A DNA stretch of 24,473 nt from a virus. This document shows positions 3,745 to 17,736 of the stretch, in pieces. Every line of letters starts with the position of its first letter. Position 1 is the first letter of the stretch. The stretch lies in IMG/VR virus record IMGVR_UViG_3300043772_001662, positions 1 through 24,473 of that record; one strand, given 5' to 3'. Below the pieces are notes generated by a model. The model saw only the letters and a program-made list of their open reading frames with translations. It was not told the DNA's origin and ran no database searches. The translations under genes and the position numbers were made by a program.

Positions 3745-4797
3745 TTAATTTGATAACGGGAAATATATTTTTGGGTGTGATTGATAATTTTCTAAAACAA
3801 TATCATCCAAAGTATATTCTGAAATATCATTTACTGCCCTTTCAGATAATCTAACATTCGGTAATGGATATGACTCCCTTGTTAATTGTTCTTTAACACC
3901 ATCTATATGATTTAAGTAGATATGACAATCACCTAAACTACAAATAACCTCATCAGGAACCATATTGACTTGTTTTGCCAACATCATAAGTAACAAAGAA
4001 TATGAGCTGACGTTATACGGCCATCCAAGTGCCGAATCGACACTGCGTTGGACCCACATTAAAGAGATTGCTCTGGTTGGGATATTATGTTTATCCATAT
4101 ATTCCATTGTTTTAGGTTCTTTGTAATGAACTGACACCCAGTTATCTAATTTTTTCATCAACTCATATCTTTCCTCCAAACTCAACTCTCTTGTATAACA
4201 TTGAAATCCATAATGACAAGGTGGAAGCACCATCGTGTCCAGTTCTCCAATATTATAAGCATTAACCATCAATCGTCTTGAGTCTGGGTTTGTTTTAAGG
4301 TCACGGATTAGGTTTGCGATTTGGTCAATTCCGTACTCAATCCTTCTTACACCTGCCTCTTTACTCTTATCTTCAACTACATCCCAACCTGTATGCCAAC
4401 TTCTCCATTGCTTACCATACACAGGACCTAAATCACCCCACTTTCTAGCAAACTCATCATCTGTTTTGATATGTTCAATAAAATCTTCTTTACTCTTTGG
4501 CCATCTTACTTCATCACTATCAACATATCTCTTATAAGCATCACCATCCCAAATATGACAATCATTATCAACAAGGTATTTGATGTTGGTATCACCTCTT
4601 AAAAACCATAGTAATTCAGTTACCATAGTTTTCCAAGCCATCTTCTTGGTTGTAAGAAGTGGAAATCCATCTTTCATATTATGACGAATCTGTCTACCGA
4701 ATACAGATAATGTTCCTCCGTTTCTAGTTTCTTTTTTTACTCCGTTATCAAGAATGTCTTGAAGGAGTGATTGGTATGATTTATCTAGGTTGTTCAT
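3745..4797 (-). CDS. thyA: Thymidylate synthase
   Basis: This 350-residue protein is a classical ThyA, which methylates dUMP to dTMP with methylenetetrahydrofolate. The catalytic cysteine is C194 in VLPPCHYGFQCY, preceded by the phosphate-binding SRRLMVNAYN (173-182). The N-terminal FGRQIRHNMKDGFPLLTTKK and the C-terminal GWPYNVSSYSLLL and GDCHIYLNH motifs are all intact. It is longer than the 264-residue E. coli enzyme because of inserts at about 95-155 and 205-235. The enzyme would supply thymidine nucleotides for an AT-rich phage genome. It uses an ATG after an A/T-rich stretch without Shine-Dalgarno. Confidence 0.97.
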   Translation of the reverse strand: MNNLDKSYQSLLQDILDNGVKKETRNGGTLSVFGRQIRHNMKDGFPLLTTKKMAWKTMVTELLWFLRGDTNIKYLVDNDCHIWDGDAYKRYVDSDEVRWPKSKEDFIEHIKTDDEFARKWGDLGPVYGKQWRSWHTGWDVVEDKSKEAGVRRIEYGIDQIANLIRDLKTNPDSRRLMVNAYNIGELDTMVLPPCHYGFQCYTRELSLEERYELMKKLDNWVSVHYKEPKTMEYMDKHNIPTRAISLMWVQRSVDSALGWPYNVSSYSLLLMMLAKQVNMVPDEVICSLGDCHIYLNHIDGVKEQLTRESYPLPNVRLSERAVNDISEYTLDDIVLENYQSHPKIYFPLSN

Positions 4798-6987: not shown

Positions 6988-8886
6988 TTATTTCTTTAAA
7001 TTAATTACACCATTTTCAATAACATCATTAACCATTGATTTTTGCATATATTCTGTCCCTAAAGTGTGTTTCACTCCATTTTGGATAATATCATTAAACC
7101 TTTCATCACCATCTAACCAATCACCATCTTCAGTGTGTTTCACCCCATTTTGAATGGTATCTTTAACAGTGTTTTCTCGTGAAAGTTTAAGATCTATGGT
7201 GTTTTTCACCCCATTTTGGATTATTTCTTCAACTTGCCAATCAATATATTGTGTCATTGGGGAAATATTTCTCACCCCATTTTGAATGGTATCTTCAACT
7301 CCTGATTGAATCGATTCAGGCAAAAACAGGGTGTTTTTCACCCCATTTTGAATGGTATCTTCAACAAGCTTCTTATTTTCAAAAATCTTTGGACTGGTGT
7401 TTTTCACCCCATTTTTAATAGCATCTTCAACTTTATTATATTGTGCCCACCCAATCTCGATGTGTTTCACCCCATTTTGAATGGTATCTTCAACCGCACA
7501 ATCATTAAAGATGTCACCAATAACGGTGTGTTTAACTCCATTTTGAATGGTGTCTTTAACAACGCTGCTTCGTCGTAGACAAATATCCCCGATCTCTTTA
7601 ACCCCATTTTGAATGGTATCTTCAACTGAAGTGACTGTCAGTTTTGACAATGGAAAGGCGTACTTCACCCCATTTTGAATGGTATTTTCAACGCTTTTGG
7701 GACAATCTGTACTTGAACGATTGGTGCGTTTCACCCCATTTTGAATGGTATCTTCAACTGCCAATGGTCTAACCCCTTTATGTAATTCAGTTTCCTTCAC
7801 CCCATTTTGAATGGTATCTTTAACTCTCAACTTGTTCTTTTGTCCATTTTGGATGGTTTCTTTCACCCCATTTTGAATGATATCTTCAACATCATATTTA
7901 CAGTTTCCAACAGAACTGGAGATGTATTTTATCCCATTTTGAATGGCATCTTCAACCTCAAACGAATCTTCTTCCTCTATCATTCGGGTGTATTTCACCC
8001 CATTTTGAATAATATCTCCAACCAGTTCCGGATGAAGATGACCAACCGTAGATGTGCGTTTCACCCCATTTTGAATGGTGTCTTCAACTCTTTGGTGTTT
8101 CTTCCTGAAGTTCCTTCTGGTGCGTTTCACCCCATTTTGAATGGTGTCTTCAACTATCTGATGCAATGGATGATGATTTACCTTGATGTGTTTCACCCCA
8201 TTTTGAATGGTATCTTCAACTCGTGTTGCGTTCTCTTTCCCTATATCTGAGGTGAGTTTCACCCCATTTTGAATGGTATCTTCAACTGAATCGGGTTGTT
8301 CAGAATAGTAAGTAGAGGTGTATCTAACCCCATTTTGAATGGTGTCTTCAACTATAATGCTCAATGGTTCCAACGTACGATTGGTGTGTTTTACCCCATT
8401 TTGAATGGTATCTTCAACTACACTATTAATACGGATAATCGCTTTATTGGTGTGTTTCACCCCATTTTGAATGGTATCTTCAACACCCATGCACATCCAC
8501 GGATTACTTTCTTCGGTGTGTTTCACCCCATTTTGAATGGTATCTTCAACTCTTTTCTCAGCATTAGCATTTGTTATGCTGGTGTGTCTCACCCCATTTT
8601 GAATGGTATCTTCAACCACCTCAGGTTTAAGAAATCTTGACTCAAACCATTCGGTTATATATTCTTGATTTTCCATAAGATCTAAAGATATTCCCTTAAA
8701 TAAAGATTTAAATAAATTGTAGTTATACCACAATGTTTTTTCTTTAGTAAATTCAACCATCCATTTTAATTCTTCGGTATTAATTAACCAAAAAGATCCA
8801 TTATGGTTGTATATGTCCATGCCATTTGTGACATCATTAATGATCTCAAATAAACATTCTTTTCTTTTTATTTTTTTATAATCCAT
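6988..8886 (-). CDS. Repeat-array protein with 25 VEDTIQNGVKHT units and hypervariable inserts
   Basis: The protein has 632 residues. Residues 1-90 form a non-repetitive, Trp- and Tyr-rich domain (NHNGSFWLINTEELKWMVEF, then NQEYITEWFESRF). From residue 91 a 22-residue unit repeats: 12 conserved residues, consensus VEDTIQNGVKHT, then 10 residues that differ in every unit. There are 25 motifs; the last (VNDVIENGVI) leads into the C-terminal NLKK. Unit 18 has a 9-residue insert and unit 23 an 11-residue insert; the other 22 inserts have exactly 10. Motif position 11 varies (H, R, Y, N, E, L). No signal peptide, membrane segment or catalytic motif is seen. I do not recognise the function. Candidates are a binding or decoy protein with diversified surface loops, a multi-core peptide precursor, or an ORF carrying a nucleic-acid-level array. 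A T4-late-like TATAAATA lies 29 nt upstream. Confidence 0.85.
   Translation of the reverse strand: MDYKKIKRKECLFEIINDVTNGMDIYNHNGSFWLINTEELKWMVEFTKEKTLWYNYNLFKSLFKGISLDLMENQEYITEWFESRFLKPEVVEDTIQNGVRHTSITNANAEKRVEDTIQNGVKHTEESNPWMCMGVEDTIQNGVKHTNKAIIRINSVVEDTIQNGVKHTNRTLEPLSIIVEDTIQNGVRYTSTYYSEQPDSVEDTIQNGVKLTSDIGKENATRVEDTIQNGVKHIKVNHHPLHQIVEDTIQNGVKRTRRNFRKKHQRVEDTIQNGVKRTSTVGHLHPELVGDIIQNGVKYTRMIEEEDSFEVEDAIQNGIKYISSSVGNCKYDVEDIIQNGVKETIQNGQKNKLRVKDTIQNGVKETELHKGVRPLAVEDTIQNGVKRTNRSSTDCPKSVENTIQNGVKYAFPLSKLTVTSVEDTIQNGVKEIGDICLRRSSVVKDTIQNGVKHTVIGDIFNDCAVEDTIQNGVKHIEIGWAQYNKVEDAIKNGVKNTSPKIFENKKLVEDTIQNGVKNTLFLPESIQSGVEDTIQNGVRNISPMTQYIDWQVEEIIQNGVKNTIDLKLSRENTVKDTIQNGVKHTEDGDWLDGDERFNDIIQNGVKHTLGTEYMQKSMVNDVIENGVINLKK
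6997..8616 (-). repeat. Array of 25 x 36-bp repeats with 30-bp unique spacers (CRISPR-like geometry, in-frame)
   Basis: Minus-strand repeat starts are at 8616, 8550, 8484, 8418, 8352, 8286, 8220, 8154, 8088, 8022, 7956, 7890, 7824, 7758, 7692, 7626, 7560, 7494, 7431, 7365, 7299, 7233, 7167, 7098 and 7032. The period is 66 bp except 63 after 7494 and 69 after 7167. The repeat core GATACCATTCAAAATGGGG is almost invariant at the nucleotide level in the units from 8616 to about 7300, including third codon positions. The last four units diverge, ending with the highly diverged one at 7032. The core can fold as CCATT-CAA-AATGG, and the next bases as GGTG-AAA-CAC. Spacers share no obvious similarity, except that the spacer at 7825-7854 contains an offset, degraded repeat core. 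No cas gene is in the window. Confidence 0.9.
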
Positions 8887-8943: not shown

Positions 8944-9687
8944 TTATTTGTATTTCCAAATAAAACCTTGTGACTTTTTATATCCTTTCCTTAAACAATT
9001 ATTTATTGCTTTGTAAGATAATTCTAATTCTTTTGAAGCAATTAAAGCATTCGTCCATTCTTTAATAAATTCATTGTCTAATGAAAATTGTAAAACAGGT
9101 TTAGATTTAGCGTGAGGTAATCCGGTTCGTTCTAAATATCTTTTATAATTATTATTTTTACCCTTTGCGGATTCACTCATTTTAGTTTTTGTTTCGGAGG
9201 TCTTTAATTTACCCTTCCAAAATTCACTCATCTTCTTTTTTGTTTCATCGGTAATTTTTTTACCAAGAGCTGATTGACTCATTTTCTTTTTTGACTCTTC
9301 ATTATGTTTCCTACCGTACCAAAATGGTTTTAATGTCCCATTCAAAACTAACTCATCATCTTTTGGTACTCTATAAACTTTACCATTTTCACCCATATAT
9401 TGTCCCAAACCAACAGTTTTAAAACCAACATCAGGAATATGGGCATTCCTGTTTAATTTATCGGAAATATGTTCAATGATTAACTCTCGTTCATATCTAA
9501 TACAATCTTCTCTATTAATAAAATCACATTTAATAATAGTTTTAATTAATTTTTTTTTATCTGTTTTCCAAGACCTCATAGACCCCATATAATAAACATC
9601 TTTAGTTGGTTCAACTTTAGATGTTCTACTACCAAAATAAAATTCTTTTGTTTTCGGTAATTCTAATTTATAAACATAATGATACAT
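8944..9687 (-). CDS. GIY-YIG homing endonuclease with NUMOD repeats
   Basis: This 247-residue protein is a free-standing GIY-YIG endonuclease. The nuclease domain shows YVYKL (4-8) and YFGSR (17-21) in place of GIY and YIG, with the acidic helix YERELIIEH (65-73) carrying the probable metal-binding Glu. Residues 125-178 hold three NUMOD3-type DNA-binding repeats (HNEESKKKMSQSALGKK and two similar copies). Residues 198-247 (VLQFSLDNEFIKEW through QGFIWKYK) are a NUMOD1-like helix-turn-helix module that also ends the HNH enzyme at 19497. Such enzymes cut genomes lacking their gene and spread by repair. A TATTTATA motif lies just upstream of the ATG. It does not visibly interrupt a neighbouring gene. 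Confidence 0.9.
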   Translation of the reverse strand: MYHYVYKLELPKTKEFYFGSRTSKVEPTKDVYYMGSMRSWKTDKKKLIKTIIKCDFINREDCIRYERELIIEHISDKLNRNAHIPDVGFKTVGLGQYMGENGKVYRVPKDDELVLNGTLKPFWYGRKHNEESKKKMSQSALGKKITDETKKKMSEFWKGKLKTSETKTKMSESAKGKNNNYKRYLERTGLPHAKSKPVLQFSLDNEFIKEWTNALIASKELELSYKAINNCLRKGYKKSQGFIWKYK

Positions 9688-16239: not shown

Positions 16240-17736
16240 TTACTTTTTACCACATATTTTCTTAACATCTTCGTCATTGATGGTTTTGTTCTTTGTTTTT
16301 TCTTCTAATGCCTTTTCCGTTTCTTCTCCGAACTTACCATCAACACCAACACCTAAACATTTTTGTAATTGCACTATTCTTGGTCCTTTACATCCTTTAT
16401 GATATTCACCATTACAATTCACATACTCACTTTTTCCTGTCCCGTCATTACCACCACCTGATGAACTTGGATCACATTTCCAATCAGAGTTTTTATAATC
16501 TTCCACAGATTTATGACCACATTTTTTAGCCTTTACTAATAAATCTTCTGATTGTAAAACGTTACATTTAGGATCGTTAGGTATTTTTTTACAATATTTT
16601 TTTAAATTCTCAGCACATTCTTCAACGTGATCTTTACAATATTCTTCAGATTCAGTTTGTGCGTATTTTTTAGTCATATCAACTAATGGTTCAGCAATGC
16701 CTTCCCAACCATAATCAAAATCACCATTTAACGCCTCTAACAAAGATTCTCCAAATGTATTTTCATATTTTTCACCTACCGCACAAAAATCACCAGGACT
16801 TTTAAATGATTTGAATACACCGTAAACCGCTTCTTCATCTGTACCCAAACCTTCCATGGCATGATATAATATCCCTGAATTCTTTTTAACCTCTGTATCA
16901 CTCATATATCTTTTCCACTTATCCTTGTCACTACTTGATTGACAAATATCAAATAATTTTTCAACCATACCCATTTTATCGTCTTTTGTGTACGCCCAAA
17001 CACCTAAAGCCGCGATACTCGCAACACCAATTATTGCCCAACCAACAGGACCTAAACCTAAAAAAGTAGCCGCAGCCGCTGCCGCTTCACCACCACCAAC
17101 CGCAGCGGCCGCTCCTGCCCCTACCGCGACCTCAGTACCTACCACCGCCGCAGCTTCCGCTCCTCCTACCACCGCCGCAGCTTCCGCTCCTCCTACTACT
17201 GCCGCGGTTTCCGCTCCTCCTACTACCGCCGCAGTTTCCGCACCTACCGCCGCAGCTTCTGCTCCTACCGCAGCTTCCGCTCCTACCGCAGCTTCCGCTC
17301 CCGCAACTTCAGCACCTACCGCAGATTCGGCTCCTGCAACTTCAGCACTTGACGCAGCATTTTTTCCTATACCTGTGACTGATTTTACTACTTTACCTCC
17401 TCCAACAGTGTTTGTTGCAGTTTGAACGTTTTTATTAGACGCAACATCTTTTACCGCATCAATAACCTTTTCAGGTTTATTAATCCATTTTGAACCTTTA
17501 GGTGTTTTTCCTTTATCAACGGCAGAATCAAAAATATCACCATCTGGTGTCCTAAATCTTCTTGGTTTACCATCTGAAGTCCCATAAATATTAGTACCGG
17601 AATCACTATCTAAACTTTTTAATATATCAGCATAACCTTCATAACCTTCTTGTTCATTTAATGTCTTAGAACGATCGTAACCCATAAGGTTTTTAATCCT
17701 ATTTAACTCCTCAAGTATAAGTTTTTTATCTTTCAT
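16240..17736 (-). CDS. Ala-rich membrane-spanning protein with peptidoglycan-binding domain, probable virion/ejection protein
   Basis: This 498-residue protein is modular. Residues 1-29 (ELNRIKNLMGYDRSKTLNEQ) end in LNE, resembling a T4-type capsid-targeting peptide cut after LxE. Residues 127-224 are an Ala/Val/Gly/Glu repeat of GAEAAAVVG type. Residues 225-249 (GPVGWAIIGVASIAALGVWAY) form a membrane helix. Residues 292-340 (MEGLGTDEEAVYGVFKSF to LLEALNGDF) resemble an annexin-type repeat. After a Cys-rich region (367-421), residues 448-482 (GPRIVQLQKCLGVGVDGKFG) match PG_binding_1. The Ala stretch is GC-rich in an AT-rich genome. I infer a packaged protein that crosses the envelope and contacts peptidoglycan. 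A tail lysozyme accessory is the alternative; no catalytic lysozyme domain is seen. Confidence 0.8.
   Translation of the reverse strand: MKDKKLILEELNRIKNLMGYDRSKTLNEQEGYEGYADILKSLDSDSGTNIYGTSDGKPRRFRTPDGDIFDSAVDKGKTPKGSKWINKPEKVIDAVKDVASNKNVQTATNTVGGGKVVKSVTGIGKNAASSAEVAGAESAVGAEVAGAEAAVGAEAAVGAEAAAVGAETAAVVGGAETAAVVGGAEAAAVVGGAEAAAVVGTEVAVGAGAAAAVGGGEAAAAAATFLGLGPVGWAIIGVASIAALGVWAYTKDDKMGMVEKLFDICQSSSDKDKWKRYMSDTEVKKNSGILYHAMEGLGTDEEAVYGVFKSFKSPGDFCAVGEKYENTFGESLLEALNGDFDYGWEGIAEPLVDMTKKYAQTESEEYCKDHVEECAENLKKYCKKIPNDPKCNVLQSEDLLVKAKKCGHKSVEDYKNSDWKCDPSSSGGGNDGTGKSEYVNCNGEYHKGCKGPRIVQLQKCLGVGVDGKFGEETEKALEEKTKNKTINDEDVKKICGKK
17065..17358 (-). repeat. GC-rich alanine tract with imperfect short repeats
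   Basis: About 290 nt encode residues 127-224 as imperfect GAEAA and GGAEAAAVV units. The DNA is visibly GC-rich (runs such as GCCGCAGCTTCCGCTCCT on the plus strand), against the AT-rich surroundings. Neighbouring units are near-identical, which suggests recent slippage expansion. The opposite strand is also open here, but this is a consequence of the repeated codons. Confidence 0.8.

Follow-up and report, generated by a model that had tools for sequence, protein, structure and literature searches.

An in-frame phage gene array with an apparent CRISPR-adaptation signature

The array gene and its surroundings

The window analysed here is the whole 24,473-nt stretch of the IMG/VR virus record IMGVR_UViG_3300043772_001662. 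According to the ORF list, its minus strand carries, at 6988-8886, a 632-codon gene in which 90 non-repetitive residues precede a motif array, and the unit table resolves this array into 25 copies of a 36-nt motif, VEDTIQNGVKHT, and 24 complete inserts. The same gene was found in 18 other independent IMG/VR contigs, with 0-3 SNPs over 1896 nt, and is therefore no assembly accident. Its features, all on the minus strand, are the following.

6988..8886, minus strand: whole array gene, 632 codons (ORF list; 18 other contigs, 0-3 SNPs)
8617..8886, minus strand: N-terminal domain of 90 aa, conserved throughout the family (AlphaFold2, alignments)
6997..8616, minus strand: array made up of the 36-nt motif VEDTIQNGVKHT in 25 copies and of 24 inserts, mostly of 30 nt (unit table)
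8581..8616, minus strand: first (domain-proximal) 36-nt repeat (unit table)
7495..8616, minus strand: domain-proximal 17 units with mostly canonical repeats, the region most different from the sister array L027
6997..7167, minus strand: distal degenerate units, with inserts common to L027 and L028 (old tail)
7099..7131, minus strand: insert EDGDWLDGDER, the most widely shared cassette, present in 21 arrays

An earlier note, made by a model from the sequence alone, had described 25 motif copies after a 90-residue domain, and this held. Its statement that each copy is followed by a different 10-residue insert held only in part, since there are 24 complete inserts, of which 22 have 10 residues, one has 9 and one has 11; one of them, IQNGQKNKLR, includes part of the motif. 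The near-invariance it attributed to the motif was likewise confirmed in part, being found mainly in the first ~17 copies, and the terminal copies are degenerate.

The sister array L027 lies in a near-identical phage, the flanks of which are 98-99.8% identical to those of the window except for one stretch at 93%. When L027 is compared with the window array, the distal end is kept while the domain-side half is different. The same inserts at the same positions in distant phages had been proposed as the mark of an old, static protein; inserts do recur in the same order in some relatives, chiefly within the C-terminal tail, whereas the part towards the domain is different. Separately, L028 is chimeric (1-1158), a different N-terminal domain and irregular repeats being joined there to the old array tail of the window phage.

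Three other minus-strand genes of the window were recorded. A homing-endonuclease-like gene with NUMOD3 motifs (8944-9687) is located directly upstream of the array gene; a 498-aa phage protein with alanine-rich repeats (16240-17736) has a weak Annexin match (PF00191, E 2.3e-4) that is below cut-off; and the start of the thymidylate synthase gene (3745-4797), DILDNGVKKETRNG, is similar to the array motif, probably by chance, although no test of this was made.

A family of lake-phage proteins with a common N-terminal domain

Searches of viral contigs yielded 121 distinct related proteins with the same plan, on phage contigs of up to about 300 kb, and the family members are lake-phage proteins. 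The N-terminal domain is common to them and is present in all but two of the ORFs that hold canonical repeats. AlphaFold2 models this domain as a helix, four strands and two helices, with pLDDT values of 91-98 over most of its length; a structure search with it found no relative in the PDB and only uncultured phage proteins in BFVD. The modelled array part has a pLDDT below 50, so that no fold is predicted for the array and the criterion for a folded solenoid repeat protein is not fulfilled.

No family member was found in the cultured phages or bacterial genomes searched. Weak matches of the array to tape-measure proteins, Dodecin and ZorA were set aside as apparent repeat effects, because the domain alone matches nothing in Pfam or PADLOC. 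In the neighbourhood of the array genes, neither an integrase nor a modifying enzyme occurs as a conserved neighbour. For one phage gene the closest relative belongs to a human faecal phage, followed by Microbacterium and Cellulophaga phages, and any inference about the host group of the array phages remains uncertain. In a 190-kb phage, G014, domain-plus-array modules are fused ahead of unrelated-looking partners, some of which belong to phrog_36119 and phrog_27331.

L273 4456-6612: G014 fused module
L274 4055-5977: G014 fused module
L275 6456-7529: G014 fused module

Young repeats match the end of their own domain and are evenly spaced

In G014, the young 36-nt repeats of each gene or module (L276, L273, L275) are identical and match the end of their own domain, this domain-end repeat being VEDTIQNGVKNT in one gene or module and VERILQKEVKDT and VERILQKEVKYT in others. 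The young repeats of L180, L293 and L090 also equal their own domain end, and mismatches generally become more numerous with distance from the domain. In young arrays as many as 8 copies agree at 36/36 positions; the older ones have drifted. Neighbouring repeats resemble one another more closely than they do under a permuted order (9.96 vs 11.61, sd 0.08).

Of 103 pairs of near-identical neighbouring repeats, 101 have a spacing of exactly 66 nt; when all units are taken together, spacings of 63 and 69 nt also occur. The exact spacing and the repeat identity are explained by an insertion of fixed length with local duplication of the repeat, and a constraint on protein length alone is insufficient.

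Young repeat copies begin with G in 66 of 77 cases and end with C in 70 of 77. In type II-A CRISPR integration a G is found at both repeat borders (G1/G36), and a ruler sets the repeat length (PMC6895254). The array repeat is not known as a host CRISPR repeat: a search for its core in 85,000 genomes of bacteria and archaea gave no exact hit, and the Rfam CRISPR repeat models gave no match. The reverse-complemented repeat has an apparent resemblance to type VI-B repeats of Bacteroidetes (20-23/36), which is a lead only. The sequence for comparison with CRISPR repeats of freshwater Bacteroidetes is GGTGTGTTTCACCCCATTTTGAATGGTATCTTCAAC.

A conserved repeat hairpin was also considered. The pairing is preserved among young repeats, with two compensatory changes in one variant; the hairpin is nevertheless left unproven, because its folding stability is no better than that of shuffles and the young repeats share ancestry.

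Two arrays look broken (L240 4970-5666 and L176 1-1421), the defects being an in-frame stop within an insert and a shift of frame from domain to array.

Inserts are the same or unrelated, foreign in composition when young and under selection when retained

Among 321 distinct 10-mers, pairwise identities of 0-5 fit the column-shuffled expectation, none occurs at 6, and a second group appears at 7-9. This bimodal distribution shows that any two inserts are either one cassette or unrelated. The claim that the inserts have no common pattern thus held family-wide, shared cassettes apart, and no alignment is possible between unrelated inserts, alignable families being what the earlier note would have taken as ordinary tandem duplication. 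The 675 units of 101 arrays fall into 371 insert clusters, and only 3 of the 101 arrays contain a duplicated insert; whole-unit copying is therefore excluded as the main route of growth.

These data bear on one alternative, in which a 22-residue unit underwent ordinary tandem duplication and the inserts then diverged fast. In its favour, the repeats are tandem and near-identical, and three arrays do hold a duplicated insert. However, intermediates between same and unrelated inserts are missing, and young neighbours combine a 36-nt repeat with 0 mismatches and unrelated inserts, which leaves this explanation with next to no room.

Insert GC follows the state of the neighbouring repeats, being 0.448 (0.424-0.472) where these are identical, 0.402 where they have 1-2 mismatches and 0.373 at >=8; phage GC, at ~0.31, is below insert GC. 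Young inserts have no codon-position bias, while old inserts show the phage pattern. By composition, young inserts are foreign to the phage and older ones are phage-like. One young insert holds a perfect, operator-like 20-bp palindrome.

As for the source of the inserts, for which a search of phages and plasmids had been proposed, the sequences compared were 2.09 Mb of phage flanks, two array-containing phage records, cultured phages and plasmids, and none of them gave a match. Copying from the same phage was rejected on the basis of the flank search and the two-record search. Neither was there a sign of overlapping inserts drawn from a small common source, with no reverse-complement excess over chance and with the longer shifted matches being variants of shared cassettes. 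A template repeat was sought in two phage records, where the second-best matches obtained with young inserts stayed at control level.

For variants of one retained insert across arrays, grouped by a DNA distance of <=10 nt, dN/dS is 0.32-0.39, and the peptides are therefore retained by purifying selection.

A further alternative is that the array is non-coding, either a CRISPR or guide-RNA array whose open frame is due to chance or a decoy acting at the RNA level. The 36/30 geometry, the identical repeats and the polar growth described below speak for it. Against it, 681 of the 682 repeat spacings are divisible by 3, the conserved domain accompanies the canonical repeats in all but two ORFs, and retained inserts are under purifying selection. 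We regard this reading as very unlikely, and an array working only at the RNA level, one option of the earlier note, is disfavoured on the grounds of frame and selection.

Growth is polar in the best case

Polarity is shown most clearly by the tandem paralogue array genes of L180. Their domains are identical at 210 of 225 nt, and they have one common anchor insert (29/30 nt), on the domain side of which one paralogue has five and the other four private inserts, all of those repeats being identical. Family-wide, motif decay and insert sharing both rise towards the distal end. Polarity is not strict across the family, as unshared units in close pairs number 154 on the domain side, 180 internally and 67 distally. 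The frequent internal unshared units imply that exchange or ectopic insertion occurs too, and type II-A CRISPR arrays are known to acquire units ectopically (PMC7999890). The clearest young arrays, L276 and L180, are each known from one metagenome assembly, and two pattern scans found no sister populations of young arrays.

It could be argued that a large pool of old cassettes is merely reshuffled, homologous recombination through the 36-bp repeats moving them from phage to phage, with no inserts being made now. The same cassettes do occur in otherwise different phages, L027 and L028 are mosaic, and internal differences are common. However, domain-adjacent inserts are mostly private and have foreign GC, the repeats of young arrays all equal their own domain end, where imported units would differ, and duplicated units are nearly absent. 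Reshuffling alone is thus unlikely.

Proposed mechanism

Taking these observations together, we favour, with a probability of about 0.6, a polar capture of ~30-bp pieces of foreign DNA coupled to duplication of the 36-bp repeat, within a coding gene. The translated gene appears to bear the signature of CRISPR adaptation, the array apparently growing as CRISPR arrays do. That the 36-nt repeat is copied by some mechanism which also adds a new 30-nt segment, as the earlier note inferred, is strongly supported by the own-domain-end repeats, the 66-nt spacing, L180 and the few duplicates; polar acquisition of foreign DNA, which that note did not name, is indicated by the evidence. Repeat identity, 66-nt spacing, foreign composition, frame keeping, purifying selection and, for the best case, polarity are shown, and the steps that follow are proposed.

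A DNA piece of ~30 bp, foreign to the phage, would enter beside the 36-bp repeat with which the N-terminal domain ends, and this domain-end repeat would be duplicated upon each insertion. Provided that the piece has no in-frame stop, the frame would survive (66 = 3 x 22), and the protein would gain a 22-residue unit in which 10 variable residues are new. Later, repeats would drift and inserts would move towards the base composition of the phage, units would be lost or swapped via recombination through the repeats, and useful peptides would be retained by purifying selection. The pieces may be mainly host DNA, abundant during host degradation by a T4-like phage, and the benefit may be the display of diversified, mostly disordered peptides on a conserved domain; both source and function are inferred.

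The enzyme, too, is inferred, and is probably an integrase of the Cas1-Cas2 type supplied in trans by the host. In 29 phage records, many of them fragments, neither Cas1 (PF01867) nor reverse transcriptase (PF00078) was present, and the host is therefore the likely supplier. In F. columnare, a type II-C Cas1 adds mostly 30-bp spacers, some of them host-genomic, in trans to a VI-B locus with 36-bp repeats (PMC8092290). A bolder version, in which the domain-end repeat is itself a substrate of a Cas1-Cas2-type integrase that turns 30-bp pieces of host DNA into selected phage peptides, is offered tentatively, the balance lying slightly against it.

Two rivals concern the enzyme and the purpose of the array. 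An unknown integrase outside the Cas1 family, encoded by phage or host, could possibly perform the fixed 30-bp capture and the 36-bp duplication; the absence of Cas1 from the 29 records favours it, as does the restriction of the family to phages, with no bacterial-genome relative or core match. Against it, no integrase is among the conserved neighbours of the array genes, and, integrases outside the Cas1 family are not known to duplicate a target of this length upon adding a fixed-length piece. Alternatively, the array could be a trap, a leader-repeat mimic that diverts spacers from the host CRISPR locus, with the peptides as by-products. The CRISPR-like signature would be equally expected, and the reported hypothesis that phages steer acquisition towards host DNA (PMC4283603) favours this reading; but the peptides are under purifying selection, and neither coding capacity nor the retention of old units would be necessary. 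We consider a trap unlikely.

Comparison with known systems

With CRISPR arrays (types II-A, II-C and VI-B) the phage array shares 36-nt repeats with unique 30-nt inserts of near-constant length, growth at one end next to a leader-like part with a repeat duplicated per insertion (internal insertions or exchanges being also common), a G at each border of the repeat for most young copies, and degenerate distal repeats. It differs in being translated in frame, with a conserved protein domain instead of a non-coding leader, and in the amino-acid selection on retained inserts. Because it is coding, the phage records lack cas1 and no protospacer has been identified, we do not class it as a CRISPR array. 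In acquisition in trans or at ectopic positions (F. columnare VI-B by II-C Cas1, PMC8092290; S. thermophilus CRISPR3, PMC7999890), Cas1-Cas2 serves a foreign array, host DNA is used and units are added within the array; there, however, the targets are true CRISPR loci of the bacterium and not a phage gene.

Diversity-generating retroelements also target variable segments of phage proteins, whereas for the phage array neither a reverse transcriptase nor a template repeat was found, and its segments are wholly new and not mutated; diversification by such an element was rejected, no RT being present in the 29 records. Tandem-repeat proteins have similarly regular 22-residue units, but the phage inserts are not mutual copies and no folding of the array is predicted. 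Multi-core RiPP precursors combine a leader-like domain, a repeated recognition motif and variable cores, as the phage array does; here, in contrast, the cores have no positional pattern and come from unrelated DNA, and a modifying enzyme is not a conserved neighbour. We found no description of a comparable system in the literature searched.

Significance

If the proposed mechanism is true, a virus turns random foreign DNA into new protein sequence, one unit of fixed length per step, and the birth of new peptides would be directly observable. It would mean either that CRISPR-type integration is used beyond immunity or that a new integrase gives the same output, and the inserts would be a record of past hosts that could serve to identify them.
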